Assembly: GCF_003428335.1 (NCBI RefSeq)
Contig: NZ_CP031704.1
Span: forward strand, 3,596,001 to 3,660,000
DNA length: 64,000 bases
Direction: 5' to 3'
Source of the DNA: Solimonas sp. K1W22B-7
GTDB taxonomy: Bacteria; Pseudomonadota; Gammaproteobacteria; Nevskiales; Nevskiaceae
Under the pieces are notes generated by a model. It did not search any database. It had not been told where the DNA came from and saw nothing but the letters and a program-made list of their open reading frames with translations. Positions 11,144-24,049 of the stretch are shown here, in pieces. The first letter of the stretch is position 1; every line of letters begins with the position of its first letter. Both the position numbers and the translations under genes were made by a program.

Positions 11144-14100
11144 TCAAGCCTGCGGCGTCTCCACCGTCGGCGGCGCGATAACCACCGGCTTCTTCTTCCA
11201 CAAACCGCCCTGCCCGTACTGCTGCCAGCCCCAACGCAGCCAGCCGAGCAAAGCATTGGCCAGCCACAGCGCCCAGGCCAGCATCAGCAGGCGGTAGACC
11301 CACATCGGCACCGACAGCACCCAGGCCGTCGGCAGCAGCTGCCCGTAGCGGTCCTGGTACCAGTGCAGCGAGTTGCCGAAGGACTGGTTGCCGGTGATCT
11401 GCATGTCCGGCGAACCGAGCAGCCCGTGCGCCACGGCACCGAACAGCGTCGACAGCGCCGCCAGCGTCAGCAGCAGCAGCCCGACCTGCACCAGGTCAAA
11501 GCGCCGCCAGGACCAGGTCTCCGGCATGCGCCCGCGCCAGCCCAGCGCCAGCAGCCAGCCCACCACCACGGCCGCCGCGGGCACCGGGATCTGCGACAGG
11601 CCCACCATCAGCAGCATCCATTGCGCCGCGCGCAGCGGCGTCAGCGTCAGGCGGCCCAGGCCCACGGCGATCACCATCAGCACCGCCAGCACCGACCAGA
11701 ACAGCACCGCCGGCCCCAGTCGCGGACCGCCCAGCAGCAGCGGCCAGCGATCCTGCGGCAGCTCCAGGTCCAGCACGGCGTTGACGCCGGGCAGGCCCAG
11801 GTCGATCGCCGGCGTGTGCAGCAGCAGGGCCATGGCCTCGTCGCTGCGCAGCTTCAACTCGAAGTCCTGCGCACCGGGACGCAGCGTCAGCGGCACCTGC
11901 ACGCCCTTGTCGCTGTTGCTCTGGCGCAGCGGCTGCGGCACGCCATCCTGGCTCAGGCCCAGCAGCGACCAGCCGGCCGGCAGCGTCAGCAGCTGCGAGC
12001 CGCCCTGGCCCGAGCGCAGGCGCAACTTCAGCGTGGCGTCGCGCGCGCGCAGCCCCGGCTGCAGCAGCAGCTGGCTGCGCTCCAGCGTCACCACCTGTCC
12101 CTGCGCGCCGGCCGGGCGCGACAGCTTCACGGCCAGCGACTCACCCGGCCAGGGCTGGAACTGCGGCAGCCAGTAGCCCTGGTCCTCGCGCCGCACCGGC
12201 GGCAGCGCGCCAGCGCCTTCGGTAGCGAAGTCGGCATGCCACAGCGGGCTGACGTCGAAGCGCCAGACCTCGTAGAGCTCGCTGCCCTTGGGCGCCAGCA
12301 GCTTCAGCTCGCGCGCCTGCTCCAGGCGCGAGGTCCAGCGCCGCTCGCTCTCCTGCGGCGCCAAGGCCACTTCCACGGCGCCGTCAACCGCACGCAGGTT
12401 CTCGCCGGTGAGGCGCTCGCCCGGCAGCAGCGGCACGCGCGCCAGCACCGGCGTGTGCATCACGCCCTCGCGGCTCAGCACCGTCTCCACCTCCCAGTCC
12501 AGGCCCAGGCGCAGCGTGCGGGTCACCACCAGCAGCGCCGGCAAGGCCTGCTCGCTGCCCGTCGCCGCGCTCGCGCCGGCTTCACGCAGGCGGCTCAGCT
12601 GCAGCGTCGCGGCCGGCTGGCCCTCCTCGTTCAATCCCGCCAGCGCCCAGCCCGACAGCTCGGCGCGCACGCCGCGCGGCGCCAGCGGCAGCGGCAGCTG
12701 CACCTGCGTGAAGCCCGACAGGCTGCCGCGCAGCAGCAGTTCGTGGCGGCCGGCGGGAGCGGCCAGCCACAGCTGGCCCTGGGTGTCGCGGCGTAGCGCC
12801 GCCGGACGCCCGTCGAGCAGGGCCTCCTGCGGTTGCCATACCGTGTCCTGCGCGCCATCCGCCACCGCCGGCAGCGGCAGCGGCAAGGCCGATTCAGCGG
12901 CGGCGTCGATGGTCAGGCGCAGGCTCAGCACATTGCCCTGTGCGCTCAGCGCCATGCGCGGCAACTCGGCGCAGCGCGGCGCGCATTCCGGCGGCGCCAG
13001 CAGGCGATTCTTCAACTCGTCCAGCCAGGACTGCTCCGGCATCGGCGGCACCGGTGTCTCGGCCAGTGCCGGCGGCGCCCAGCCCAGGCTGCCGCCCAGC
13101 GTCAATAGCAGCGCGGCCATTGCCGCAGGCGCGGCAACGCGGCGCTGCGGCAGGCGCGGCCAGCCACCGCCCATCCAGCGCAGCAGCGTCAGCGCCATCA
13201 GCAGCAGCGCCAGCAGCTTCAGGCTGCGCGTCATCCAGGGCGGCGACAGCCACAGACCCATCTCCTGTTCCACCGTCACCGGCCCCGCCGCCGACAGGCT
13301 GGCAGAGGCCCAGCGCCACTCCGGCAGGCCGGGGCCGGTCTGGGTCAGCGCGTTGGGGTCGAGGCTCTTGAGGGATTGCTGCGAGACGTTGTTTGCCTGC
13401 GGGTAGCCGCCATAGCGGGATGCCTTGTCCTTCGCCATCGACGCCAGTACGCGCGGGCTGACCACATCCCTCCTGGCCCGCTCTTCAAACACGTCTTCCA
13501 CTGCGGGCGCCGCCTGGCCGGCCTCCGCCATCGGCGGTGGTGGTGCCGCGGGTTCAGGCATTGCGGCCGCCTGCTCCTTTGCCAGGTCAAAGCTGAAGCC
13601 CGGCGATTCCTGCCCCACCCGCTCCAGCTGCGGATACATCGCCTCGCGCACCTGCGTCAGCGCGAAGGGCAGCGCGATCAGCAGCAGCGCCGCCGCCGAC
13701 AGCCAGCGGTAGCGATCGAGGAAGCGTGCCAGGCGCTCGCCGCGCAGGCCCTCCGGCAGCGCGCGCAGCAACGCCACGGCGGCGATCAGGTTGAGCCAGG
13801 CCCATTGCGGCGCCCCGGCCTCGTGCCAGCTCAGCGCCAGCGCGGCCAGCGCGATGCCGCCGGTGGCGGCGCCGAACAGGCGCAGGCTCGCCACCGCGAC
13901 GATCATCACCAGGAACAGGTCCAGCAGCGTCCAGCGCGACAGCCAGGTATCGGCGCGGTCCACACCACTGGCCGCGAACAGGCGCCAGCCCGGCGGCAGG
14001 TGCAGCGTCGTGTTCACGGCATGCAGCTCGATGTTCCAGCCATTGGCCGGCAGGCTGCGCAGCGAATCGTCGACGCGGCTTTCAGCCAGGAATGCGAGCT

Positions 14101-15334
14101 GGCCATGGCGCACTTCCACGCCGGCCGGCGCTTCCGGCGCCAGCCGCGTGATCAGCTGCGGCTCGCCATCGGAATCGGCACGGCCCAGCGCCAGCGGCGC
14201 AGCCGCCTCCAGGCGCCAGCGGCTGGCGAGCTTGCCGCCCAGCGTGTCGCGCAGGGTCCAGCCGCCGCCGTCGAAATCCAGCCACAGCTCGCGGTGCAGG
14301 GTCACCTCGTCGGGCGGCGGCACGGCCTCGCCACGGCTGCGCTCGTTCAGCACCAGCACCGTGCCCGGCTGCATCAGGTAGGCGGGATCGGCCTTCCACT
14401 CTTCCGGCAACTGCGTCTGGCGCGGATCCAGCGGCGCGGCACCGCTGGGCTCGATCACGCGCAGCTCCGGCCGCGCATGCACCGACCAGGTTTCCTCGGC
14501 CGGCCAGGGCTCCGGCAGCTTCGCCAGTTCCAGCTTCGCCACCGGCGCCGGCGCACGGGCGACGAGCGTCACGCGCCAGACGCCGGGACGCAGGCCGACG
14601 CGCAGGCGGCCCTGCTCGTCGAGCCGTGCCGGCAGGTCACCGGACAGCGACAGCGGCGTGAAGCCGGCCGGCAACGCCGGCCCCAGCACCACCTCGCGCG
14701 CCTGCCCCGCCACCTCCAGCAGCAGCTGCGTCACCAGGCGCAGCGGAATATCGTCCTCGACGCGGCGCAGCACCTGCAGTTCCAGGTGATCGCCGCTGGC
14801 GGCGGCGCCGGCGGCACCCAGCCACAGCTCACCCTCGGCGTTGCGCGTGGGACTGCTGCGCTCCTCGCCATCGACCCGCAGGCTCACCAGGCCGGCATCC
14901 GGCGGCAGCGGCAGGCCCTCGGGCAGGCGCGACCAGTCGAAATCGCCGCGCAGGCGATACTCGCCCGCCACCAGCCACACCGCCGGCGCGCCCTCGTGCT
15001 CCACCACCGGCGCCGCCTTGCCATCGGCGCTGACATCGCGCGGCCAGCGCGCGGCATCGCCGGGCAGCCGCACCCAGCCGGGCGCGTACAGCCGCAGCGC
15101 CAGCTCGAAGCGCCCGCCCCGGCCATCCAGGTCCAGGCTCAGCGCGGAGGGCCAGCGGCATTCGCGGCCTTCACCTTCAGCGGCCAGCGGGCAGGCTCGC
15201 AAGTCCTCGCCCTGCAGCGCCCAGCCGACCCAGGGCTGCAGGGGCGCGGGCACGTCCTTCTCCTGCAGCGGCGCCGCATGGGCGCAGGCAAGCGGCAGCA
15301 ACAGCGCGAGGGCAAGACGGAACTTCGAGGACAT
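11144..15334 (-). CDS. Giant envelope protein of unknown function (1396 residues)
   Basis: I do not recognise a family. AGGAGG 5 nt before ATG 15334 fixes the start. A signal peptide (ALALLLPLACAHA) leads into a large beta-rich, Leu/Arg/Glu-rich periplasmic part. A hydrophobic cluster lies at about 465-565, another pair near 695-750 with a second, APALAE-like cleavage-type stretch, then a second soluble part that seems to repeat the first (LRL...LPLPLPAV, GRHELLLRGSL, LPLPLAPRGVRAEL), and finally five or six membrane helices from about 1205 to 1390. The duplicated soluble-membrane layout suggests an inner-membrane protein with two periplasmic lobes. The codon and composition style match the neighbours. 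It is transcribed alone. Confidence 0.8.
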   Translation of the reverse strand: MSSKFRLALALLLPLACAHAAPLQEKDVPAPLQPWVGWALQGEDLRACPLAAEGEGRECRWPSALSLDLDGRGGRFELALRLYAPGWVRLPGDAARWPRDVSADGKAAPVVEHEGAPAVWLVAGEYRLRGDFDWSRLPEGLPLPPDAGLVSLRVDGEERSSPTRNAEGELWLGAAGAAASGDHLELQVLRRVEDDIPLRLVTQLLLEVAGQAREVVLGPALPAGFTPLSLSGDLPARLDEQGRLRVGLRPGVWRVTLVARAPAPVAKLELAKLPEPWPAEETWSVHARPELRVIEPSGAAPLDPRQTQLPEEWKADPAYLMQPGTVLVLNERSRGEAVPPPDEVTLHRELWLDFDGGGWTLRDTLGGKLASRWRLEAAAPLALGRADSDGEPQLITRLAPEAPAGVEVRHGQLAFLAESRVDDSLRSLPANGWNIELHAVNTTLHLPPGWRLFAASGVDRADTWLSRWTLLDLFLVMIVAVASLRLFGAATGGIALAALALSWHEAGAPQWAWLNLIAAVALLRALPEGLRGERLARFLDRYRWLSAAALLLIALPFALTQVREAMYPQLERVGQESPGFSFDLAKEQAAAMPEPAAPPPPMAEAGQAAPAVEDVFEERARRDVVSPRVLASMAKDKASRYGGYPQANNVSQQSLKSLDPNALTQTGPGLPEWRWASASLSAAGPVTVEQEMGLWLSPPWMTRSLKLLALLLMALTLLRWMGGGWPRLPQRRVAAPAAMAALLLTLGGSLGWAPPALAETPVPPMPEQSWLDELKNRLLAPPECAPRCAELPRMALSAQGNVLSLRLTIDAAAESALPLPLPAVADGAQDTVWQPQEALLDGRPAALRRDTQGQLWLAAPAGRHELLLRGSLSGFTQVQLPLPLAPRGVRAELSGWALAGLNEEGQPAATLQLSRLREAGASAATGSEQALPALLVVTRTLRLGLDWEVETVLSREGVMHTPVLARVPLLPGERLTGENLRAVDGAVEVALAPQESERRWTSRLEQARELKLLAPKGSELYEVWRFDVSPLWHADFATEGAGALPPVRREDQGYWLPQFQPWPGESLAVKLSRPAGAQGQVVTLERSQLLLQPGLRARDATLKLRLRSGQGGSQLLTLPAGWSLLGLSQDGVPQPLRQSNSDKGVQVPLTLRPGAQDFELKLRSDEAMALLLHTPAIDLGLPGVNAVLDLELPQDRWPLLLGGPRLGPAVLFWSVLAVLMVIAVGLGRLTLTPLRAAQWMLLMVGLSQIPVPAAAVVVGWLLALGWRGRMPETWSWRRFDLVQVGLLLLTLAALSTLFGAVAHGLLGSPDMQITGNQSFGNSLHWYQDRYGQLLPTAWVLSVPMWVYRLLMLAWALWLANALLGWLRWGWQQYGQGGLWKKKPVVIAPPTVETPQA

Positions 15335-15453
15335 CGCAGCCTCCTGGCAGGGCACGGCGGGATTGTGCCTGCATTGGCGCAGGCCGGCTTTCCCTGTAAA
15401 CGGGAATCCCGGCCAAACGGGGTTACGGCCCTCGCACGGCCAGGGCCGCGCAC

Positions 15454-15500: not shown

Positions 15501-18500
15501 TTAGTGATTGACGTTGCCGATCGTCACCTTCAGCGTCTTGGGGCTGCCCAGCTTGGCCCCACCGGTCGGCAACGACAGCAGCACGCTGAACTTCTCGGCC
15601 TTTTCGCTGGCGCTATCCCAGGTGATCGGGATGGTGAAGCTCTTGTTGGCCACGTCGCCGGCTGCCCAGGACAGGTCGCCGGAGGTGGCGCCGTAGTCCG
15701 TGCCCGCCAGCGCGGTACCGTCGGCCGTCGCGTAGTGAATGCCCACTGCGTTGCCGTTGCCGCCGGTGCGGCGCAGGGTCACGGTGACGCTGCCGGCATT
15801 CTCGCTGACGGTGAGGCTCGAGCCGACGAAGGACAGCGAGCCGGCCTTGTCGTCGCTGGTGATGCTCGCGGTGCTCAGGGCATTGCCCAGCACGGCGCCA
15901 CCGGTCGGCGCGGACAGCGCCAGCGTGAAGGTTTCCGGGGTCTCGACCTGCAGGTCGTCAACCAGGTTCACGGTCACCAGGCGCGGCGTCACGTCGCCGG
16001 ATTCCCAGGTCAGGTTGCCGGACACGGACTGGTAGTCCTCGCCCGCCAGGGCCGTGCCGTCGGCCGTGGCGTAGTGGACGCTGACCGCGCCATCGCGGCC
16101 ACCGGTGCGCGCCACCTTGAACACCGCGGTGCCGACGGCCTCCTTGGCCGAAACCTTGATCGCGGAGATCGTCAGCTTGCCCGGCTTGGCGCCGCCGCTG
16201 AGACCGGTACCGCTCAGCGGCAGGCTCGCCGGGCTGCCGGGGGCGTTCGAGGGGATCAGCAGGCTGGCGCTGCGGGTGCTGGTGGCGGTCGGCGTGAACA
16301 CCACGCCGATCACGCAGGTCGCGGCCGGCGCGATGCCGCTGCCGCAGCCATTGCTGGCGATCGAGAAATCCCCCGGATGGCTGCCGCCCAGGGTCGGCGT
16401 GCCGACGTACAGCGTCGCCGTGCCGGTGTTGGTGACCGTGACGTTCTGCGGCGCCGTGGGCGTGCCCACCGTGCGGCTGCCGAAGGCCAGCTGGCCGCTG
16501 ACTCCCAGGCCCGCCTGCGTGCCGGTTCCGCTGAGGCCGGCGGTGTCCGGGCTGGACGGAGCGTTGCTGACCAGGCTCACCATGCCGTTGCGCGCACCCG
16601 CGGCGCTGGGCGAGAACGTGACGTCGACCTGGCAGCTGGCGGCGGGCGCCAGCACGGCCGCGCAGTTGTGCGAGGCCGAGAAATCGCCGCTGGCAGCGAT
16701 GCTGGTGATCGACAGCGGAGCGTCTCCGGTATTGGACAGGACCAGCGGCTGCGGCAGGCTGCTGCTGGACACCGGCTGGTTGCCGAAGGCGAGGCTGGCC
16801 GGGCTGAAGCCGACACTGGCCTGGGTGCCGGTGCCGCCCAGCGTGAAGCTGGCCGACGCGCCGGTCTGGGCCGGGCTGCTGGAGACGGTTTCCACGGCGC
16901 TGCGGCTGCCCGCGGCACCCGGGGTGAAGCTGAAGCTGACGCTGCAGGACGCGCCCACGGCGAGCAGATGCCCGCTGCAGCCGTCGCTGGCGATGGCGAA
17001 GTCCGCCGGATGACTGCCGCCGGCGCTGAAGCCGCTGACGGTGATGGGACTATTGCCGTTGTTGCTCAGGTTCAGGCTGTGGCCGCTGCTGGTGCTGCCG
17101 ACCGGCTGGTTGCCGAAGCCCAGGCCCGAGGCACTGGCCTGCAGGCTGTAGTTCGCCGCGACACCGCTGCCCGACAGCGACACCAGTTCGGGGCTGCCCG
17201 AGGCGTTGGACGGAATGCTGAGGTTGGCGCTGCGGCTGCCGGTGGCGCCGGGCGTGAAGCGGACGTCGATCTCGCAGCTGGCGCTGGCGGCCACTGCGCC
17301 GGTGCAGCCGTTGGCAACGATGACGAAGTCGCCGGGATGGCTGCCCCCCAGGGCCAGTGCACCGACCTGCAGCGGCACCGTGCCGGGATTGCTCACCGTC
17401 ACCGACTGCACCGCGCTGCTGGCGTCGACGACGATGTTGCCGAAGCTCAGGCTGGACGGCGTCACGCTGATTTCCGCCGGTGCGCGCAGGACCACCGCGT
17501 TGGTCGTGACCTCGAGGCTGCCTTCCAGGCCGGGCGGGACGCTGCCGAGGCTGACGTTGGCGGTGGTGAAGCCCGAGGCCGAGCCGAAGTTGAGCAGGGT
17601 GTAGTCGGTGCCGGCGACGATGCCGTTGTCGAGGATGTCGATCACCAGCGTGCCGCCGCCGCTGAAGCCCAGGGCGCCGCTGACATCGAGACGGCCTGAG
17701 GACGCACCCAGGGCGAGCTTGAGCTTCGCGCCGGAAGCCAGGCTGAGACTGTCGACGGTCAGCACGCCCGACGGGGCCAGGATGGCGCCCGCTTCTGCCA
17801 GCACTGCACCGACATGGCCGTTGCCGCCCAACGTGGCGGCACTGCGCAGCGTCACGCTGCCAGTGCCGGTGGCCGAGCCCGTGCTGTTGACGGCAACCAG
17901 GGTGCCGGCGGTGACGGTGGTGTCGCCGGCATAGCTGCTGGCGCCCGACAGGCTCACGGTACCGCTCTTGATTTCCACCGCGGAGAAGTTGGACAGCACA
18001 CCGGAGTAGCTGAAGGACAGGCTGGCGCCCGGATCGAAGTCCAGCGTGTTGCTGCCGCTGCCGCCGGACACGTCGCCGCTGATCGAAGCGGAGCCGCCGA
18101 GGATGTGCAGCGTGTCGTTGCCGGCTTCGAGATCGATCGCCAGGCCGTTGTCGCCGACGATGCTGCCGCTGTTGCTGAGCGTGTCGGCACCGTCGCCCAT
18201 CTGGATCGCCGGGCCCTGCGCGGCGTTGCCGCCGCCGCGGATGTTGCCGCCGGCGTTGTTGGCGATGCTGTCGGCACGGTTGCCGATGAAACGGATGGCA
18301 TAGCTGTCGTAGCCGCGGATCAGGCCCGCGTTGGTGACACTGGTCGTCCCCGGTGCCGTGCCGCCGCTGGAATCGTCCGCCAGGATGCCGTGGCCCTTGG
18401 TGCCGAAGCCGCTGGTGTCCTGGCCGGTGATCTCGGCACCGCTGTTGTTGATGATGGTGCCACCGCCCACCGAGACGCCTTCCGGGTTGCTGGCTCCGCC

Positions 18501-19487
18501 GTCGCTGCCGAGGCCGCCGGCGCCACGGCCGCGGATGATGCCGTTGTTGGTCAGCGTCACCAGTCCGTCCACATCGACGCCGTCGCCGTCGCCGGTGTTG
18601 TAGGTCACCGAATCGAAGTCGCCGAAGATGTTGCCGTCATTGACGACCGTGGCATCGCCCCGATTGCCGCCGACGACGCTGTCGATGTTGATGCCGGACC
18701 CGTCGATACCACGGATGGTGCCGCCCGCCTGGTTGGTGACGGACATGTTGAAGGCGCCGGCGGAATTGGCGCCGCCCGTGATGCCGTGGCGGCCGGTGAT
18801 CGTACCGGAGTTCGTCACCGACACGCCGGTTACCGGCAGGCCGCTGGTGCTGACCACGTCGAGCTTGATGCCCTCGTCGCTGTCGGCCTTGATCACGCCG
18901 CCGCTGTTGAGGGTGTTGGGCAGCGCCTCGATCAGGCCGGCGTTGGTGACGATGCCGTTGGTGCCGGGGCGCACGGCGTCGGCAGCGGTGCCGCGCGCGA
19001 TGCCGGTCGACAGGTTATTGAAGGTGTTGCTGGTGATCTCGCGCGCGTTGAAGGCGCGGTTGTTGCCGGAGCTGATGGTGCCGGCGTTGTTCACCGTCAC
19101 CGAGCTGCCCGGCACCGAGACCTGGATGGCGTCGTCGCCGTTGGCCGAGATCGTCGCACCGGCGCGGTTCTCGATGCCGATGACCGCGATGCCGGAGCTG
19201 TTGCGGATCGCGCGGCCGCTGGCGGTCTGGCGGATCTTGCCGCTGTTGTCGATGTTGGCGGTGCTGGTGGCGCCGCCGCCGGTGATGGTGACCGCAACGC
19301 TCCCGCCGGAGACATTGAGATCGCCGGCAGCCGATACGGTACCGGTCTGCGTCGTGCCGCTGGTGGGGTTGAGCGTCTTGGCGGCGGTATCGCTGCCGGT
19401 GACGCTGAAGTTGGCGGCGATGGCCAGCGGAATCGCTGCCAGTGAACCGAGCACCACAGACAAACGCAGAGCACGCCGACGCAGCAT
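15501..19487 (-). CDS. Secreted mosaic protein: autotransporter-type beta-helix, four choice-of-anchor-D and two Calx-beta domains
   Basis: 1328 residues. A signal peptide (about 1-24) precedes a Gly/Asn/Thr-rich region to about 640 with many 'NSGTI/NNGTI' rungs typical of autotransporter passengers, and a terminal PATR-like passage (LSGASSYAGDTTVTAGTLVA). Four immunoglobulin-like choice-of-anchor-D units follow (about 670-1100; each has a LxFGNxxVG start and DFxIxxxxC core), then two Calx-beta domains (about 1105-1328; VHYATADGTALAGEDY and its near copy). No C-terminal beta-barrel is present, so it is not a classical autotransporter; export beyond the periplasm would need another route. A likely surface or adhesion role is inference. 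A strong terminator follows. Confidence 0.85.
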   Translation of the reverse strand: MLRRRALRLSVVLGSLAAIPLAIAANFSVTGSDTAAKTLNPTSGTTQTGTVSAAGDLNVSGGSVAVTITGGGATSTANIDNSGKIRQTASGRAIRNSSGIAVIGIENRAGATISANGDDAIQVSVPGSSVTVNNAGTISSGNNRAFNAREITSNTFNNLSTGIARGTAADAVRPGTNGIVTNAGLIEALPNTLNSGGVIKADSDEGIKLDVVSTSGLPVTGVSVTNSGTITGRHGITGGANSAGAFNMSVTNQAGGTIRGIDGSGINIDSVVGGNRGDATVVNDGNIFGDFDSVTYNTGDGDGVDVDGLVTLTNNGIIRGRGAGGLGSDGGASNPEGVSVGGGTIINNSGAEITGQDTSGFGTKGHGILADDSSGGTAPGTTSVTNAGLIRGYDSYAIRFIGNRADSIANNAGGNIRGGGNAAQGPAIQMGDGADTLSNSGSIVGDNGLAIDLEAGNDTLHILGGSASISGDVSGGSGSNTLDFDPGASLSFSYSGVLSNFSAVEIKSGTVSLSGASSYAGDTTVTAGTLVAVNSTGSATGTGSVTLRSAATLGGNGHVGAVLAEAGAILAPSGVLTVDSLSLASGAKLKLALGASSGRLDVSGALGFSGGGTLVIDILDNGIVAGTDYTLLNFGSASGFTTANVSLGSVPPGLEGSLEVTTNAVVLRAPAEISVTPSSLSFGNIVVDASSAVQSVTVSNPGTVPLQVGALALGGSHPGDFVIVANGCTGAVAASASCEIDVRFTPGATGSRSANLSIPSNASGSPELVSLSGSGVAANYSLQASASGLGFGNQPVGSTSSGHSLNLSNNGNSPITVSGFSAGGSHPADFAIASDGCSGHLLAVGASCSVSFSFTPGAAGSRSAVETVSSSPAQTGASASFTLGGTGTQASVGFSPASLAFGNQPVSSSSLPQPLVLSNTGDAPLSITSIAASGDFSASHNCAAVLAPAASCQVDVTFSPSAAGARNGMVSLVSNAPSSPDTAGLSGTGTQAGLGVSGQLAFGSRTVGTPTAPQNVTVTNTGTATLYVGTPTLGGSHPGDFSIASNGCGSGIAPAATCVIGVVFTPTATSTRSASLLIPSNAPGSPASLPLSGTGLSGGAKPGKLTISAIKVSAKEAVGTAVFKVARTGGRDGAVSVHYATADGTALAGEDYQSVSGNLTWESGDVTPRLVTVNLVDDLQVETPETFTLALSAPTGGAVLGNALSTASITSDDKAGSLSFVGSSLTVSENAGSVTVTLRRTGGNGNAVGIHYATADGTALAGTDYGATSGDLSWAAGDVANKSFTIPITWDSASEKAEKFSVLLSLPTGGAKLGSPKTLKVTIGNVNH

Positions 19488-19645: not shown

Positions 19646-21052
19646 TCAGGCCTGCAGCGCCGTCCGGTAGCCCGGGTACTTCGGCTGGTCGATCGCCACC
19701 TGGTCGGCGACGCTCTGGCGCAGATGCTCCGGCAGCCCGGGACGGTCCAGCGCGATGACGCCCGAGCGCAAGCCTTCCACCAGTTCGCGGCGCAGCGCTT
19801 CCCGCTCACCGCCATGCCCGAGCACCCGTTCCAGCCCGGCCTGTTCGCGCGCGCGGCATTGCGCGCCCAGCTGCAGTTCGCGCTGCACGATCTCCAGCGA
19901 GTTGGCGGCGACGCGCGCCAGGAAGGACACACGCCCCTTGGTCGCGGCGGTGACTTCCTCGCGCAGGAAGGCCGTGGTGCTGTCGAGCAGTTCGTCGGTG
20001 CGCGGCATCTCCATGTCCGGCATGGCAGCAGCGGGCGCCAGCGGCAGCACCGGCCCGGCCAGCAGCAGGTTGACGCAGTCGATCTGGCATTCCGAGCTGC
20101 GCCGGCCGATGGCGACACGCTCGGCCGATCGGTCCGGCCCCTGGCGGTAGAACTGCGTCATCATCAGCGTGCCCATCGACCACCAGAACGCGCCGAACAC
20201 GATCCACCAGTGCAGCCGTTCCGCCGAGGGACGCTCGCCGGCGACGGCGGCGTAGCCCTCCAGCAGTTCCTCGATCGGGCCGAAGCCGCCCACCGGCAAC
20301 TCGTGCCGGCCGAAGCGCCAGGACGGCGTACACAGCCAGCCGAGATCGCGCATCGGATCGCCCCGCTGCGCCAGCTCCCAGTCCAGCACGCCGACGATGC
20401 CCCGCTCCGGCGCGACCATCAGGTTGCCGTTGCGGAAGTCGCCATGCACCAGGCGCTGCGCGGACGGCGGCGGCAGATGATCCAGCAGCCAGCGCGCGGT
20501 GTAGTCGATCATCGGCTGCGGCGTGCCGTAGCCCTGGTAGGTCACCCAGGTCTCGCGCACCAGCTGCTCCGGCGTGCGCTCGGGCAGCAGGCCGCGCAGG
20601 CCGGCGCGATCCGGGTCGATCGCGTGGATCCGCGCCAGCACCTCGCCGCACTGCCGCGCCAGGCGCGGACGCACCGTCGCCAGCGCTTCGCTGCGCAGGA
20701 TCTGCGTGCCGAGGGTTTCGCCGTCCAGCCATTCCATGAGAAAGCCGGCACCGAGACCGTCCTGCGGCTGCAGCAACCCGAGCACGCGCGGTTCCGGCAC
20801 GCCGGCCGTGTGCGCAGCAGTCAGCAGGCGCGCCTCCGCTTCCAGGCCCGCGGTGGCTTGCGCCCGCTGCGTCACTCCGCCTGGTGCGCGCCGCAGCGCA
20901 TAGCGTTGCGAGCCACCTTCCGCCTCCACCAGCAGCCGCCAGGTCTCCTGGCTGGCACCGCCCGACAGGCGCTCGCAGGACTGCAGCGCGCGGAAGCCCG
21001 GCAGCAGCCGCGCCAGCACCGCGGGCAGCTTCTCCGCCAGCTCCGCGCTCAT
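19646..21052 (-). CDS. Aminoglycoside-phosphotransferase-fold kinase fused to DUF6285
   Basis: 468 residues. Residues about 1-340 form an APH/choline-kinase-like domain with the Brenner motif HGDFRNGNL near 200 and the metal-binding LDWELAQRGDPMRD near 225. Residues about 345-455 match DUF6285 (PRTDELLDSTTAFLREEV..., FLARVAANSLEIVQREL). The ATG overlaps the stop of the acyl-CoA dehydrogenase gene (ATGA). In the levulinate pathway LvaA (same kinase family) needs the small protein LvaB and is followed by the dehydrogenase-like LvaC. By analogy this kinase may phosphorylate 4-hydroxyacyl-CoA, with DUF6285 in the role of LvaB; that is inference. Confidence 0.85.
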   Translation of the reverse strand: MSAELAEKLPAVLARLLPGFRALQSCERLSGGASQETWRLLVEAEGGSQRYALRRAPGGVTQRAQATAGLEAEARLLTAAHTAGVPEPRVLGLLQPQDGLGAGFLMEWLDGETLGTQILRSEALATVRPRLARQCGEVLARIHAIDPDRAGLRGLLPERTPEQLVRETWVTYQGYGTPQPMIDYTARWLLDHLPPPSAQRLVHGDFRNGNLMVAPERGIVGVLDWELAQRGDPMRDLGWLCTPSWRFGRHELPVGGFGPIEELLEGYAAVAGERPSAERLHWWIVFGAFWWSMGTLMMTQFYRQGPDRSAERVAIGRRSSECQIDCVNLLLAGPVLPLAPAAAMPDMEMPRTDELLDSTTAFLREEVTAATKGRVSFLARVAANSLEIVQRELQLGAQCRAREQAGLERVLGHGGEREALRRELVEGLRSGVIALDRPGLPEHLRQSVADQVAIDQPKYPGYRTALQA

Positions 21053-22320
21053 TCCTCGACCACTCCCTTGGGCGCGCGCTGCTTCATCATGCCGAACAGG
21101 TAGCCGGCGACGCGGCGCATCTGGATTTCCTCGGTGCCCTCGGTGATGCGGTAGCGGCGGTGATGGCGGTAGATGTGCTCGAAGGGCTTGTGCCGCGAGT
21201 AGCCCAGGCCGCCATGCACCTGCATCGCGCGGTCCGCCGCCTCGCAGCACAGGCGGTTCGCCCAGTAGTTGCACATCGACACCTTGTCGGAGGCCGAGAA
21301 GCGCCCCTGCGTATCCATCAGCCACGCGGTCTTGTGGATCAGCGCCCTGAGCATCTCGCACTGCGTCTGCAGCTCCACCAGCGGGAACTGGATCGCCTGG
21401 TTGGTGGCCAGCGGCTTGCCGAAGGGCTTGCGCTGCTTCGCATACTCCACCGATTCGTCGATGCAGTACTGCGCCGCGCCGAGGCTGGACGCGGCCTGGC
21501 GGATGCGGTTCTCGTTGAAGAAATGCTGCACCACCGCCAGACCCTGCCCTTCCTTGCCGAAGATCGCCGACTGCGGCACGAACACGTCCTTCAGCGACAC
21601 CCGCGCGTGGTCGGTGGGCATGTTGAAGGTCCACAGGTATTCCTCGATGCGGAAGCCCTGCGCCGCCACCGGCACCAGGAAGGCGGTGATGCCCAGGCCG
21701 TCGCCGGCCTTGCCGGCGGTGCGGGCGAAGATCAGGTCGTGGCTGGCGGTATGGATGCCGGTATTCCAGGTCTTCTCGCCATTGATGCGCCAGCCCTCGC
21801 CGTCGCGCACCGCCACGGTTTCCATGTGCGTGGCGTCGGAGCCGTGCTCCGGCTCGGTGATGCCGAAGGCGAAGAAGGCCTCGCCGCGCAGCAGCGGCTC
21901 GAGGAAATGCTCCTTCTGCTCCGCGCTGCCGTATTCGTGCATCAGCAACAGGCCGACGTGGTTGCTGACGATGGCGTGCTCGTTCTGCAGGTCGCAATGC
22001 AGGCCCAACCCCAGGTGGGCAAGATGCTCGCGGATGATCGCCATGCCCAGGTTGCTGCCGTCGCGCCCGCCCATGGCCTTGGGCAGGGGGTAGCGGTAGA
22101 AGCCGGCGGCGTCGGCCATGCCCCGTGCCCTGGCCAGCAGGGCCTCCCACTCCGGGGTCGGCAGGCCGCCGCGGTCCCAGTCGGTGCGCGCGTCCTCGCG
22201 GCGGTGGTCGAAGAAGCGGATGTTGTCGTCCGCCTGCTCCAGCGGTTTCAGCTCGCGCTCGATGAAACCGTCCATCTCCGCCAGGAAGGCGGCGATGTCG
22301 GCCGGGATAGCGAAATCCAT
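21049..22320 (-). CDS. Acyl-CoA dehydrogenase, ACAD10/11-LvaC-like
   Basis: 423 residues, full-length ACAD fold: FAFGITEPEHGSDATHMET (FAD/substrate loop) near 150, EKTWNTGIH, and C-terminal MQVHGGLGYSRHKPFEH, then ITEGTEEIQMRRV. At the place where MCAD-type enzymes have the catalytic Glu (…EYP…), this protein reads SRHKPF, so the base must sit elsewhere or the chemistry differ. ATG 22320 follows GGAGGAAAACC; upstream in-frame Met codons lack a site. It is the first gene of a two-gene operon with the kinase-DUF6285 gene, the bacterial counterpart of human ACAD10/11, where both parts are in one chain. Confidence 0.9.
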   Translation of the reverse strand: MDFAIPADIAAFLAEMDGFIERELKPLEQADDNIRFFDHRREDARTDWDRGGLPTPEWEALLARARGMADAAGFYRYPLPKAMGGRDGSNLGMAIIREHLAHLGLGLHCDLQNEHAIVSNHVGLLLMHEYGSAEQKEHFLEPLLRGEAFFAFGITEPEHGSDATHMETVAVRDGEGWRINGEKTWNTGIHTASHDLIFARTAGKAGDGLGITAFLVPVAAQGFRIEEYLWTFNMPTDHARVSLKDVFVPQSAIFGKEGQGLAVVQHFFNENRIRQAASSLGAAQYCIDESVEYAKQRKPFGKPLATNQAIQFPLVELQTQCEMLRALIHKTAWLMDTQGRFSASDKVSMCNYWANRLCCEAADRAMQVHGGLGYSRHKPFEHIYRHHRRYRITEGTEEIQMRRVAGYLFGMMKQRAPKGVVEE

Positions 22321-22464: not shown

Positions 22465-22605
22465 ATGGCCACGCCCAATTACTCGTTCGCAAAGCGTCAG
22501 AAAGAGCTGGCCAAGAAGGCAAAGAAGGAAGAAAAGCTCCAGAAGAAGAGCGCCACCAAGGGCGACGCTCCCCGTTCCGCCGACGACGACAAGCAGGCCG
22601 GCTAG
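22465..22605 (+). CDS. Small lysine-rich conserved protein (46 residues)
   Basis: MATPNYSFAKRQKELAKKAK followed by a KKEEKLQKK coil and an acidic end. AGGA lies 6 nt before ATG 22465 but abuts the alternative ATG at 22459, so 22465 is preferred. I recall short proteins with an ATPNYSFxKRQxELAKK start as a recurring uncharacterised family in proteobacteria. The charged helix could bind nucleic acid or ribosomes; that is a guess. Its stop overlaps the stop of the convergent serine hydrolase gene by 3-4 bp. Confidence 0.7.
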   Translation: MATPNYSFAKRQKELAKKAKKEEKLQKKSATKGDAPRSADDDKQAG

Positions 22606-23855
22606 CGTCCCTTCACGCGCGGGCAGTTGCGGCTGATCGCCCCCAGCACCCGCGCCACGGTCAGCAGGCTGTCCGGCGCCACCGTCTTGCCGGTATTGAG
22701 CAGCGACACCGAGATGTCGCGGTCCGGGTCGGCCCAGCAGATGATGTTCAGGAAGCCCAGGTGCCCGAAGGCCTTCGGGCAGTTGCTGCCGTAGAGACCG
22801 AACGGCCATTCCCCCAGCACGAAGGCCGGCGAAAAGCGCACCGGCGCCAGCAGCGTCCGGTCGATCTGGATCGGGCCGGCCGGGCGCACCGCTTCGGCGA
22901 TGGTTTCCGGCTTGAAGATGCGGCGGCCCTGCCAGACGCCGCCGTCGAGCAGCATCTGGTAGAAGCGGCAGGACTCCTCGGCGGTGGAATAGATGTTGGC
23001 CGCCGGCACCACCGACTCCATGAAGTGCGGGTCGTTGGTCAGCACCGCCAGTTCCTCGAAATCGACGTACAGCGCGCGCTTGGCGATCATCGCCACCGGC
23101 GCCGGCAGTGACGGGCCGGTGAAGGCATTGAGCGCGCCCCGCGGCTGCTGCTCCGGTGCCAGGCCGTAACGGAAGTACTCGCAGCCCAGCGGCTCGGCCA
23201 GCTCGGTGCGCAGCAGCTCCGGCAGCGAGCGGCCGCTGACCCGCTGCGCCACCGCGCCGGCGATGTAGCCGGCGGTGACCGCGTGGTAGGACTGCTGGCG
23301 GCCGTGCGCGGCATTGGGCTTGGACGCGCAGAGCAGGCGCACGATCGTGTCGAAGTCGTTGAGCACCGTCGGGTCGACATTCTTCAGCGGCACCTCGGGG
23401 ATGCCGGCGCGGTGCGCCAGCAGCTGGCGCAGCGTGGTCTTCTCCTTGCCGTTGTTGCCGTATTCCGGCAGGTAGTCGGCAACCCGCGCATCCAGCTGCA
23501 GCTTGCCCTGCTCGGCCAGCTTGTGGATCAGCATGGCGCTGATCGCCTTGGAGGCGGAGAACAGGCAGACCGGCGTCTGTGGCGTCAGGAGCTGCTTTTC
23601 GCCCTGCTCGCCCGGCGCATTGCCGCGCGCATGGCCGATCGCGCGGTCCAGGATCACGCGGCCATGGCGGCGCACGGTGATGGACACGCCCGGGTGCAGG
23701 CCGCTGCCGTACATCGCTTCCACCGCCGACCAGATGCGCCGGGCGGCGTCCGGCTTGAGGCCCACGTCCGCGGGATCGGTCTCGCGGGCGGGATCGTAGC
23801 TGGTGACGGAAGCAAGATCGCGGGGGACCGCGACGCGGTTCTGGCGGAAGAGCAT
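22602..23855 (-). CDS. Serine hydrolase of the beta-lactamase/esterase EstB family
   Basis: 417 residues of the class C beta-lactamase fold: SxxK in FSASKAISAM near residue 100, the Tyr of the YxN-like motif in SYHAVTAGY near 190, and a C-terminal FGHLGFLN block. No signal peptide, so it is probably a cytoplasmic esterase or lipase-type hydrolase rather than an antibiotic-hydrolysing enzyme. ATG 23855 is chosen; further upstream reading lacks family similarity. 23856-24049 separates it from the divergent ABC1 kinase gene. Confidence 0.85.
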   Translation of the reverse strand: MLFRQNRVAVPRDLASVTSYDPARETDPADVGLKPDAARRIWSAVEAMYGSGLHPGVSITVRRHGRVILDRAIGHARGNAPGEQGEKQLLTPQTPVCLFSASKAISAMLIHKLAEQGKLQLDARVADYLPEYGNNGKEKTTLRQLLAHRAGIPEVPLKNVDPTVLNDFDTIVRLLCASKPNAAHGRQQSYHAVTAGYIAGAVAQRVSGRSLPELLRTELAEPLGCEYFRYGLAPEQQPRGALNAFTGPSLPAPVAMIAKRALYVDFEELAVLTNDPHFMESVVPAANIYSTAEESCRFYQMLLDGGVWQGRRIFKPETIAEAVRPAGPIQIDRTLLAPVRFSPAFVLGEWPFGLYGSNCPKAFGHLGFLNIICWADPDRDISVSLLNTGKTVAPDSLLTVARVLGAISRNCPRVKGR

Positions 23856-24049
23856 GGAGCGAGGGTTCCCGGATGAAAGGCGACCCGCCGCGCGGATCAG
23901 GCCAAAAAGTCTGCAATAGCCGCCCAGGCCCTGCCATGGCCGCAGCGACAGCCGTCCGGACCGGGAAATTGCCGGCCCCACCGCCATTCGGAAGTGGACG
24001 GCAACGGCCGCCAGCGCGTACCGTCAGCGACAGTTTCCAGGCCCCCGAC

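Follow-up and report, generated by a model that had tools for sequence, protein, structure and literature searches.

A 64,000-nucleotide stretch of the genome of Solimonas sp. K1W22B-7 (contig NZ_CP031704.1 of assembly GCF_003428335.1, positions 3,596,001 to 3,660,000; hereafter the window) carries a gene for an acyl-CoA dehydrogenase (ACAD), followed on the same strand by a gene for a kinase of the APH family that ends in a DUF6285 domain (Table 1). Pfam finds ACAD domains in the first product, with E-values down to 4.3e-47, and the APH domain PF01636 in the second (E 8.1e-39); a profile search of the 5.37 Mb genome recovered the DUF6285 domain of the window as its sole match. A preliminary description of this DNA had noted a 4-bp overlap of the two genes and the C-terminal DUF6285, both of which are borne out here, and had read the pair as a module like LvaABC of levulinate degradation, removing the hydroxyl of 4-hydroxyacyl-CoA through a phosphorylated intermediate. 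The membership of DUF6285 in the LvaB family and of the kinase in the LvaA clade stand, and the identity of the ACAD with LvaC does not. The dehydrogenase falls instead in a clade, here called type Q, that is tied to these kinases although it lacks the elimination site of LvaC.

Table 1. The ACAD-kinase pair and its parts (positions are those of the window)
Feature	Positions	Strand	Basis and remarks
Type-Q ACAD, P0002	21049..22320	-	423 aa, exact coding sequence 22320..21049; Pfam ACAD domains
LvaA-type kinase with fused LvaB (DUF6285) domain, P0001	19646..21052	-	468 aa, exact coding sequence 21052..19646
ATGA shared by the ACAD stop and the kinase start	21049..21052	-	Sequence; possible translational coupling
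APH kinase domain, residues 26-257	20282..20977	-	Pfam; HGDFRNGN at residues 203-210, DWE at 224-226
Loop that joins the kinase to DUF6285, about residues 331-351	20000..20062	-	Without helix or strand in the AlphaFold2 (AF2) model
DUF6285, LvaB-family domain, residues 370-459	19676..19945	-	PF19802, E 3.1e-27; match to LvaB
ACAD active-site helix NRIRQAASSLGA, from residue 271	21475..21510	-	Replaces the R-x-x-HCMR helix; alignments, motif position
RRYRITEGTEEIQM, ACAD residues 388-401	21118..21159	-	Glu394 where LvaC and ACAD10/11 carry Asp; alignments

As references for LvaA, LvaB and LvaC we used an operon on the Pseudomonas aeruginosa plasmid p12939-PER. Two P. aeruginosa records annotated 'phosphotransferase family protein | lvaB: 4-hydroxypentanoyl-CoA kinase subunit LvaB' had come up when plasmids were searched by tblastn with the fusion of the window as query, and one of them holds this operon. 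The genes of the reference operon encode, in order, a regulator annotated as PrpR, a kinase, LvaB, an ACAD, an SDR-like 'glucose 1-dehydrogenase', an acyl-CoA synthetase, a DUF485 protein and a cation acetate symporter. We read them as lvaR, A, B, C, D, E, F and G, lvaB alone being so named and the others following from gene order and the accessible part of PMC6692424. The LvaB of this operon scores 85.3 bits with PF19802, whose cut-off is 28.1, at an E-value of 4.8e-24. The DUF6285 domain of the window is 34% identical to it (E 3e-8), and profiles of their two groups align in hhalign with a probability of 99.3 (E 8.4e-21), whereas neither LvaB nor DUF6285 has a match in NCBIfam. Profile comparison had been set beforehand as the test that could refute the proposed correspondence, and it gave a match; judging by it, DUF6285 is the LvaB family. 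The levulinate pathway is treated in PMC6692424, PMC11342911 and PMC12440821 (accessible parts), and the experiments on LvaB come from the first of these: the protein has a mass of 12 kDa and is pulled down with LvaA, and cells deleted for lvaB do not grow on levulinate. The text available of PMC6692424 terms it 'hypothetical'.

The domain keeps close company with its kinase. DUF6285 occurs in 9 of the 369 genomes of a class sample and in 39 of the 398 of a phylum sample, at 52 places besides the window's own. At all 40 loci read among these places, and in the window too, DUF6285 either directly follows an APH kinase or is fused to it, and a 41st (in genome G684) likewise has the domain with a kinase. 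Two of the 40 are exceptional in form: 445 bp separate the kinase and DUF6285 matches of locus L050, and the kinase of L051 is split over three frames. The latter gene (L051:6475-7729, genome G314), downstream of a type-Q ACAD, is a pseudogene or an assembly error. In a tree of 73 kinases, a branch with 100/100 support separates the 48 partnered with DUF6285, LvaA and the window kinase among them, from 25 without it, of which 22 lie near an ACAD10/11-type ACAD, one of them in the window genome. This position and an identity of 33% to LvaA confirm the window kinase as a member of the LvaA clade. The presence of DUF6285 requires one change on the tree and its fused or separate state at least five; next to the window kinase in the tree are two fused kinases from a different family (100/100). 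A search for relatives of the window fusion gave 86 loci of other records, many of them metagenome-assembled genomes, and we read the best 80, at 49-77% identity, the closest named one being that of Solimonas fluminis (77%). Kinase and DUF6285 are fused in all 80, and because the same fusion recurs in at least 80 loci of other records, that of the window is not a chance event.

We could rule out that DUF6285 is specific to type Q or to fused proteins, as it also stands alone beside LvaC-type ACADs. On two Thermus plasmids (L156:4793-7929 and L157:4844-7971) an LvaC-type ACAD, the kinase and DUF6285 are followed by a histidine phosphatase. Such a gene also lies beside the lvaA homologue of P. 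citronellolis, according to the accessible part of PMC6692424. The Thermus phosphatase had no match in the window genome, in a search that had no positive control and so shows nothing. Six further loci (L049, L050, L064, L080, L158 and L159) have neither an LvaC-type nor a type-Q ACAD, and carry near their DUF6285 kinases genes of a single cluster, whose representative in L050 is DUF7064/DUF7065 by Pfam.

The ACAD of the window departs from LvaC in its active site. Aligned with mouse ACAD11, it has F267 for R626, Q275-A-A-S278 for H634-C-M-R637 and Glu394 for D753, while the LvaC of the plasmid operon reads THCMR and YDGPSEVH at the two motifs. In the part of the ACAD11 paper available (PMC12440821), the HCMR motif is essential, a change of the catalytic Asp inactivates the ACAD, and stabilisation of the phosphate likely depends on the upstream Arg, R626. 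When the ACADs around DUF6285 kinases were put in one alignment, 12 loci had an LvaC-like enzyme, 15 (window included) had type Q, with NRIRQAASS and the Glu, and the rest had other kinds. We then sorted a larger set by the motifs NRIRQA (70 sequences) or HCMR (55), leaving out 13 ACADs that fell in neither, and looked at columns outside the sorting: the HCMR set has the upstream Arg and the catalytic Asp in 55/55, and type Q has Phe and Glu at these sites in 70/70; Ser stands for R637 in 69/70. In a tree of 74 rows, built by a quick method without bootstrap and keeping 21 of 41 ACAD10/11-type sequences, type Q forms one clade (SH-aLRT 100) outside that of LvaC and the ACAD10/11 type (99). The window ACAD is 78% identical to that of locus L045. 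Its closest solved relatives are CarC- and SCAD-like rather than ACAD11 (CarC, E 3e-51), and its E-G-T aligns with the E-G-T of CarC, at the canonical position of the C-terminal catalytic Glu. Type Q also has invariant Arg and His residues of its own, such as R274, and a block, GYSRHKPFEHIYRHHRRYRITEG, that is the same in eight aligned members. On the alignments and the tree, type Q is a separate ACAD clade with the canonical Glu and without the phosphate site of LvaC.

Alignment of the active site, conserved columns and tree position together rule out the window ACAD as LvaC, and the removal of a hydroxyl by LvaC chemistry, proposed in the preliminary description, is unlikely because HCMR, Arg and Asp are all missing. 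The same genome has an ACAD10/11-type kinase and ACAD pair elsewhere (L114:4022-6307, about 901.5-903.8 kb of G000:C1), with HHCMR and LADGPDEVH; no match to DUF6285 was found beside it. Two f217 genomes have both kinds of ACAD side by side, with one of the ACAD10/11 type (L055:1123-2166 and L178:1913-2956) no more than 4 kb from a DUF6285 kinase and type-Q module.

Type Q is nevertheless found with the kinase more often than expected. Of 396 sampled genomes from the phylum of the window, 32 match a motif pattern for type Q, and 27 of the 32 have DUF6285 against 3.2 expected (hypergeometric p 1.3e-27). A permutation within 11 families assigned by hand gave an expectation of 18.6, and none of 200000 permutations reached 27. 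The two matches lie within 2.4 kb of each other in 17 of the 27 genomes and are not linked in ten. Four of these ten have 0.6-2.7 Mb between the matches on a single contig; in the other six the matches are on separate contigs, so that a break between contigs could conceal a shorter distance. All of the ten unlinked type-Q genes except that of G658 were read in locus sequence. Reading of loci or window identified a type-Q ACAD in 19 of the 27 genomes in total, and in seven of the remaining eight the match is no more than 2.4 kb from DUF6285. Five genomes seemed to have type Q without DUF6285, but this was rejected: four have no ACAD around the pattern match, and G650 has a fused kinase missed by Pfam. 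The pattern itself missed the type-Q ACADs of G684 and G729 (L068), so that the kinase is present in 30/30 type-Q genomes found among the 396 (the 27, G650, G684 and G729).

The fused kinases give the same picture from the other side. Of the best 80 of the 86 loci, 44 include a type-Q ACAD, which in 43 is directly upstream on the same strand, as in the window, with 44-325 bp from the end of the ACAD to the start of the kinase match. Of the 36 remaining genomes 35 could be searched, and 33 of these have type Q elsewhere, at 60-83% identity and in one as a fragment, which brings the tie to 77 of the 79 searchable loci; the exact motif was present in 26 of 29 genomes tested for it. The clade extends to metagenome-assembled genomes labelled Myxococcota and Acidimicrobiia. 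Around the relatives lie genes for SDR proteins, enoyl-CoA hydratase, CoA-transferase, thiolase and CoA ligase, a setting that resembles acyl-CoA breakdown. In nine loci from Acidimicrobiia, Microthrix or Actinomycetota metagenome-assembled genomes (L197, L201, L217, L219, L225, L231, L233, L238 and L250), a gene of one cluster, a PhyH-like dioxygenase by Pfam on a single member (the L219 representative), lies directly upstream of the fused kinase, and in eight of them a Polyketide_cyc2-cluster gene lies downstream. A hydroxylase-then-kinase order is possible there.

What DUF6285 does for the kinase may be read from what the kinase has lost. The catalytic Asp, Asn and Asp (HxD, N, DxE) are intact in 48/48 DUF6285-partnered kinases, including that of the window. 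Two Arg at positions 83 (beside the alpha-C Glu) and 175 of the mouse ACAD11 chain, present in 25/25 kinases without DUF6285, are retained in only 1/48 and 0/48 of the partnered ones (Lys once at 175). The accessible part of the ACAD11 paper models contacts of CoA to an Arg beside the alpha-C Glu, its R86, and to R176 (PMC12440821); R86 is equated here with position 83 by its description, the numbering being different. Because these two invariant Arg are missing, we propose that DUF6285/LvaB may bring an acyl-CoA docking surface that this kinase branch lost. The AF2 model of the fusion has a mean pLDDT of 94.7 and a pTM of 0.93, and so puts the domain with confidence against the kinase. The domain consists of five helices, and modelled alone reaches a pLDDT of 95.1 and a pTM of 0.79; its Arg47 and Pro113 (numbered on window 19649-20020) are nearly invariant. 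Solved chains gave no match to the DUF6285 profile (best E 0.14), Foldseek with the model of the domain alone found nothing significant (best E 1.5), and the best VIA-align hit has a Z of 5.7 over 46 residues, which does not show a new fold.

We think it probable, though far from assured, that the two genes form a module for the ATP-dependent processing of a hydroxylated acyl-CoA, in which the fused kinase acts and the type-Q ACAD follows in the same route. From the family memberships, the fusion, the lost LvaC signature and the co-occurrence we infer the following steps. The substrate of the LvaA-type kinase with its fused LvaB is most likely a CoA ester with a hydroxylated acyl chain, whose hydroxyl the kinase would phosphorylate while DUF6285 may supply the docking surface; given the family it belongs to, phosphorylation of a hydroxyacyl-CoA by the window kinase is plausible. 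Type Q, with an active site unlike that of LvaC, would take part in this route and most likely use the phosphorylated product, leading to an enoyl-CoA for beta-oxidation. More tentatively, and with somewhat more doubt than conviction, type Q could add a third kind to the kinase-coupled ACADs, next to LvaC and ACAD10/11, whose rebuilt pocket (Glu base, Arg274/Gln275 and the invariant basic C-terminal block) takes phosphorylated acyl-CoA and processes hydroxyls that LvaC-type enzymes cannot; DUF6285/LvaB would be one half, the one that docks CoA, of a kinase active site divided in two, and would have been joined to the other half repeatedly.

Several observations weigh against this account. No measured activity of a type-Q ACAD or a fused kinase was found in the literature searched, and co-occurrence indicates shared use, not which enzyme acts first. 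Type Q may not see phosphate at all, because the phosphate-contacting Arg and His are lost. As for docking, 17/48 and 13/48 kinases do have an Arg or Lys no more than two columns away from the lost sites 83 and 175, respectively, and because no solved relative of DUF6285 was found it is the residue loss that carries this role. The tie itself has gaps: type Q may occur without the kinase, because the pattern misses some type-Q genes, and two genomes with a fused kinase (those of L218 and L214) have no type Q that we could find in locus or genome. Finally, type Q was not found in 10 of 40 DUF6285 genomes (six have an LvaC-type ACAD in the locus, two loci were not read and two have no ACAD within 12 kb), and DUF6285 kinases therefore also serve other ACADs.

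On another view, type Q is an ordinary dehydrogenase, linked to the electron-transfer flavoprotein (ETF) and working on the alpha,beta bond. Kinase and ACAD would then serve a shared degradation route at separate steps, and the phosphate would be released by another enzyme or never reach the ACAD. The canonical Glu, the nearness to CarC and SCAD and the many genomes in which ACAD and kinase are not linked all speak for it. Yet type Q in 77 of 79 fused-kinase loci (best 80 of 86) and a kinase in 30/30 type-Q genomes make a tie stronger than expected for a generic enzyme, its invariant basic residues are unusual, and we consider such a role unlikely, if worth keeping in mind. That the module is instead a full equivalent of LvaABC, with the ACAD using the LvaC/ACAD11 mechanism to strip a 4-phosphoacyl-CoA of its phosphate, would agree with the shared operon logic, the LvaA and LvaB homology and the strong co-occurrence, and the invariant Arg274 with the Arg/His run of type Q could form another phosphate site. 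It has to face an active site replaced at every one of the residues R626, H634-C-M-R637 and D753, without exception at the Arg and Asp sites in 70/70 members, an HCMR that is essential in the accessible part of the ACAD11 paper (PMC12440821), and a pair in the window genome (L114) that does fit; we hold it decidedly unlikely.

A kinase acting on the hydroxyl of a non-CoA or steroid-like substrate, with DUF6285 as a regulatory or folding partner, appears very improbable. The 25-hydroxysteroid kinase, which serves the ATP-dependent dehydration of a tertiary alcohol (PMC8449060, accessible part), is among the closest folds to the window kinase (9ft5, Z 23.1, rmsd 4.0, 321 aligned), but the match is unspecific because many APH and choline kinases score near it. 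By sequence the closest solved proteins are the bacterial APH-family 3dxp and 9o56 and then mouse ACAD11; LvaA, 33% identical, shares the clade, and the relatives' neighbours are acyl-CoA enzymes.

The surroundings of the pair in the window differ from those of the lva operon. Genes like lvaD, lvaE, lvaF, lvaG or lvaR were not found among the scanned neighbours, which are a beta-lactamase-fold hydrolase, an ABC1/UbiB-like protein, DUF4442, a lipase, an FG-GAP repeat protein and a Calx-beta/repeat protein. The hydrolase (22602-23987, minus strand) lies upstream of the ACAD on the same strand; its best NCBIfam score is to LipE, under the cut-off, and it could be an esterase or lactonase supplying the pathway. 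On the other side, on the minus strand as well, are a 1328-aa protein with Calx-beta, HYDIN-like Ig and PATR repeats (15501-19487) and the next long open reading frame, of 1403 aa and without a Pfam match at 1e-5 (11144-15355).

The idea of a kinase coupled to an ACAD is already known, as is LvaB, and the NCBI annotation names one DUF6285 protein LvaB. In the literature searched we did not find DUF6285, and on LvaA/LvaB and kinase-ACAD pairs, besides unrelated papers, there was work on levulinate and ACAD10/11 only, as far as our searches reach. Within the same reach, what is new is the link of DUF6285 to a whole clade, its repeated fusion, and type Q as a kinase-tied ACAD without the elimination signature. 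LvaB, as a member of the DUF6285 family, marks an entire branch of acyl-CoA-linked kinases, often as a fusion, and its role becomes addressable on one polypeptide. Gene order alone does not suffice to assign ACAD10/11 chemistry to a kinase-ACAD pair, because type Q lacks the known elimination site and is kinase-tied all the same. If type Q does act on phosphorylated acyl-CoA, this would be unexplored flavoenzyme chemistry.

Set beside known systems, the window pair shares parts with each. Canonical ACADs such as CarC, SCAD and MCAD resemble its dehydrogenase in homology and in the position of the catalytic Glu, and differ in lacking the type-Q block RHKPFEHIYRHHRRYRITEG in the alignments shown; to our knowledge, they have no tie to a kinase. 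The 25-hydroxysteroid kinase of Sterolibacterium denitrificans (PDB 9FSG, 9FT5) has the kinase fold in common and turns a tertiary alcohol into a leaving group for elimination by phosphorylating it, but its substrate is a steroid, it is not one of the 73 kinases in the tree, and its phosphate lyase was unknown in the accessible part of the 2021 paper (PMC8449060). Animal ACAD10 and ACAD11, and the bacterial pairs of that type of which L114 is one, likewise couple an APH-type kinase to an ACAD; their kinases form another clade with no DUF6285 found beside them, and their ACADs carry HCMR and the Asp. The nearest likeness is to LvaA-LvaB-LvaC of P. putida, represented here by the p12939-PER operon, which has a kinase of the same clade, an LvaB of the same family and an ACAD in the operon. 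In the window, outside the company of the other lva genes, LvaB is fused to the kinase, and the ACAD does without the HCMR, Arg and Asp of LvaC.

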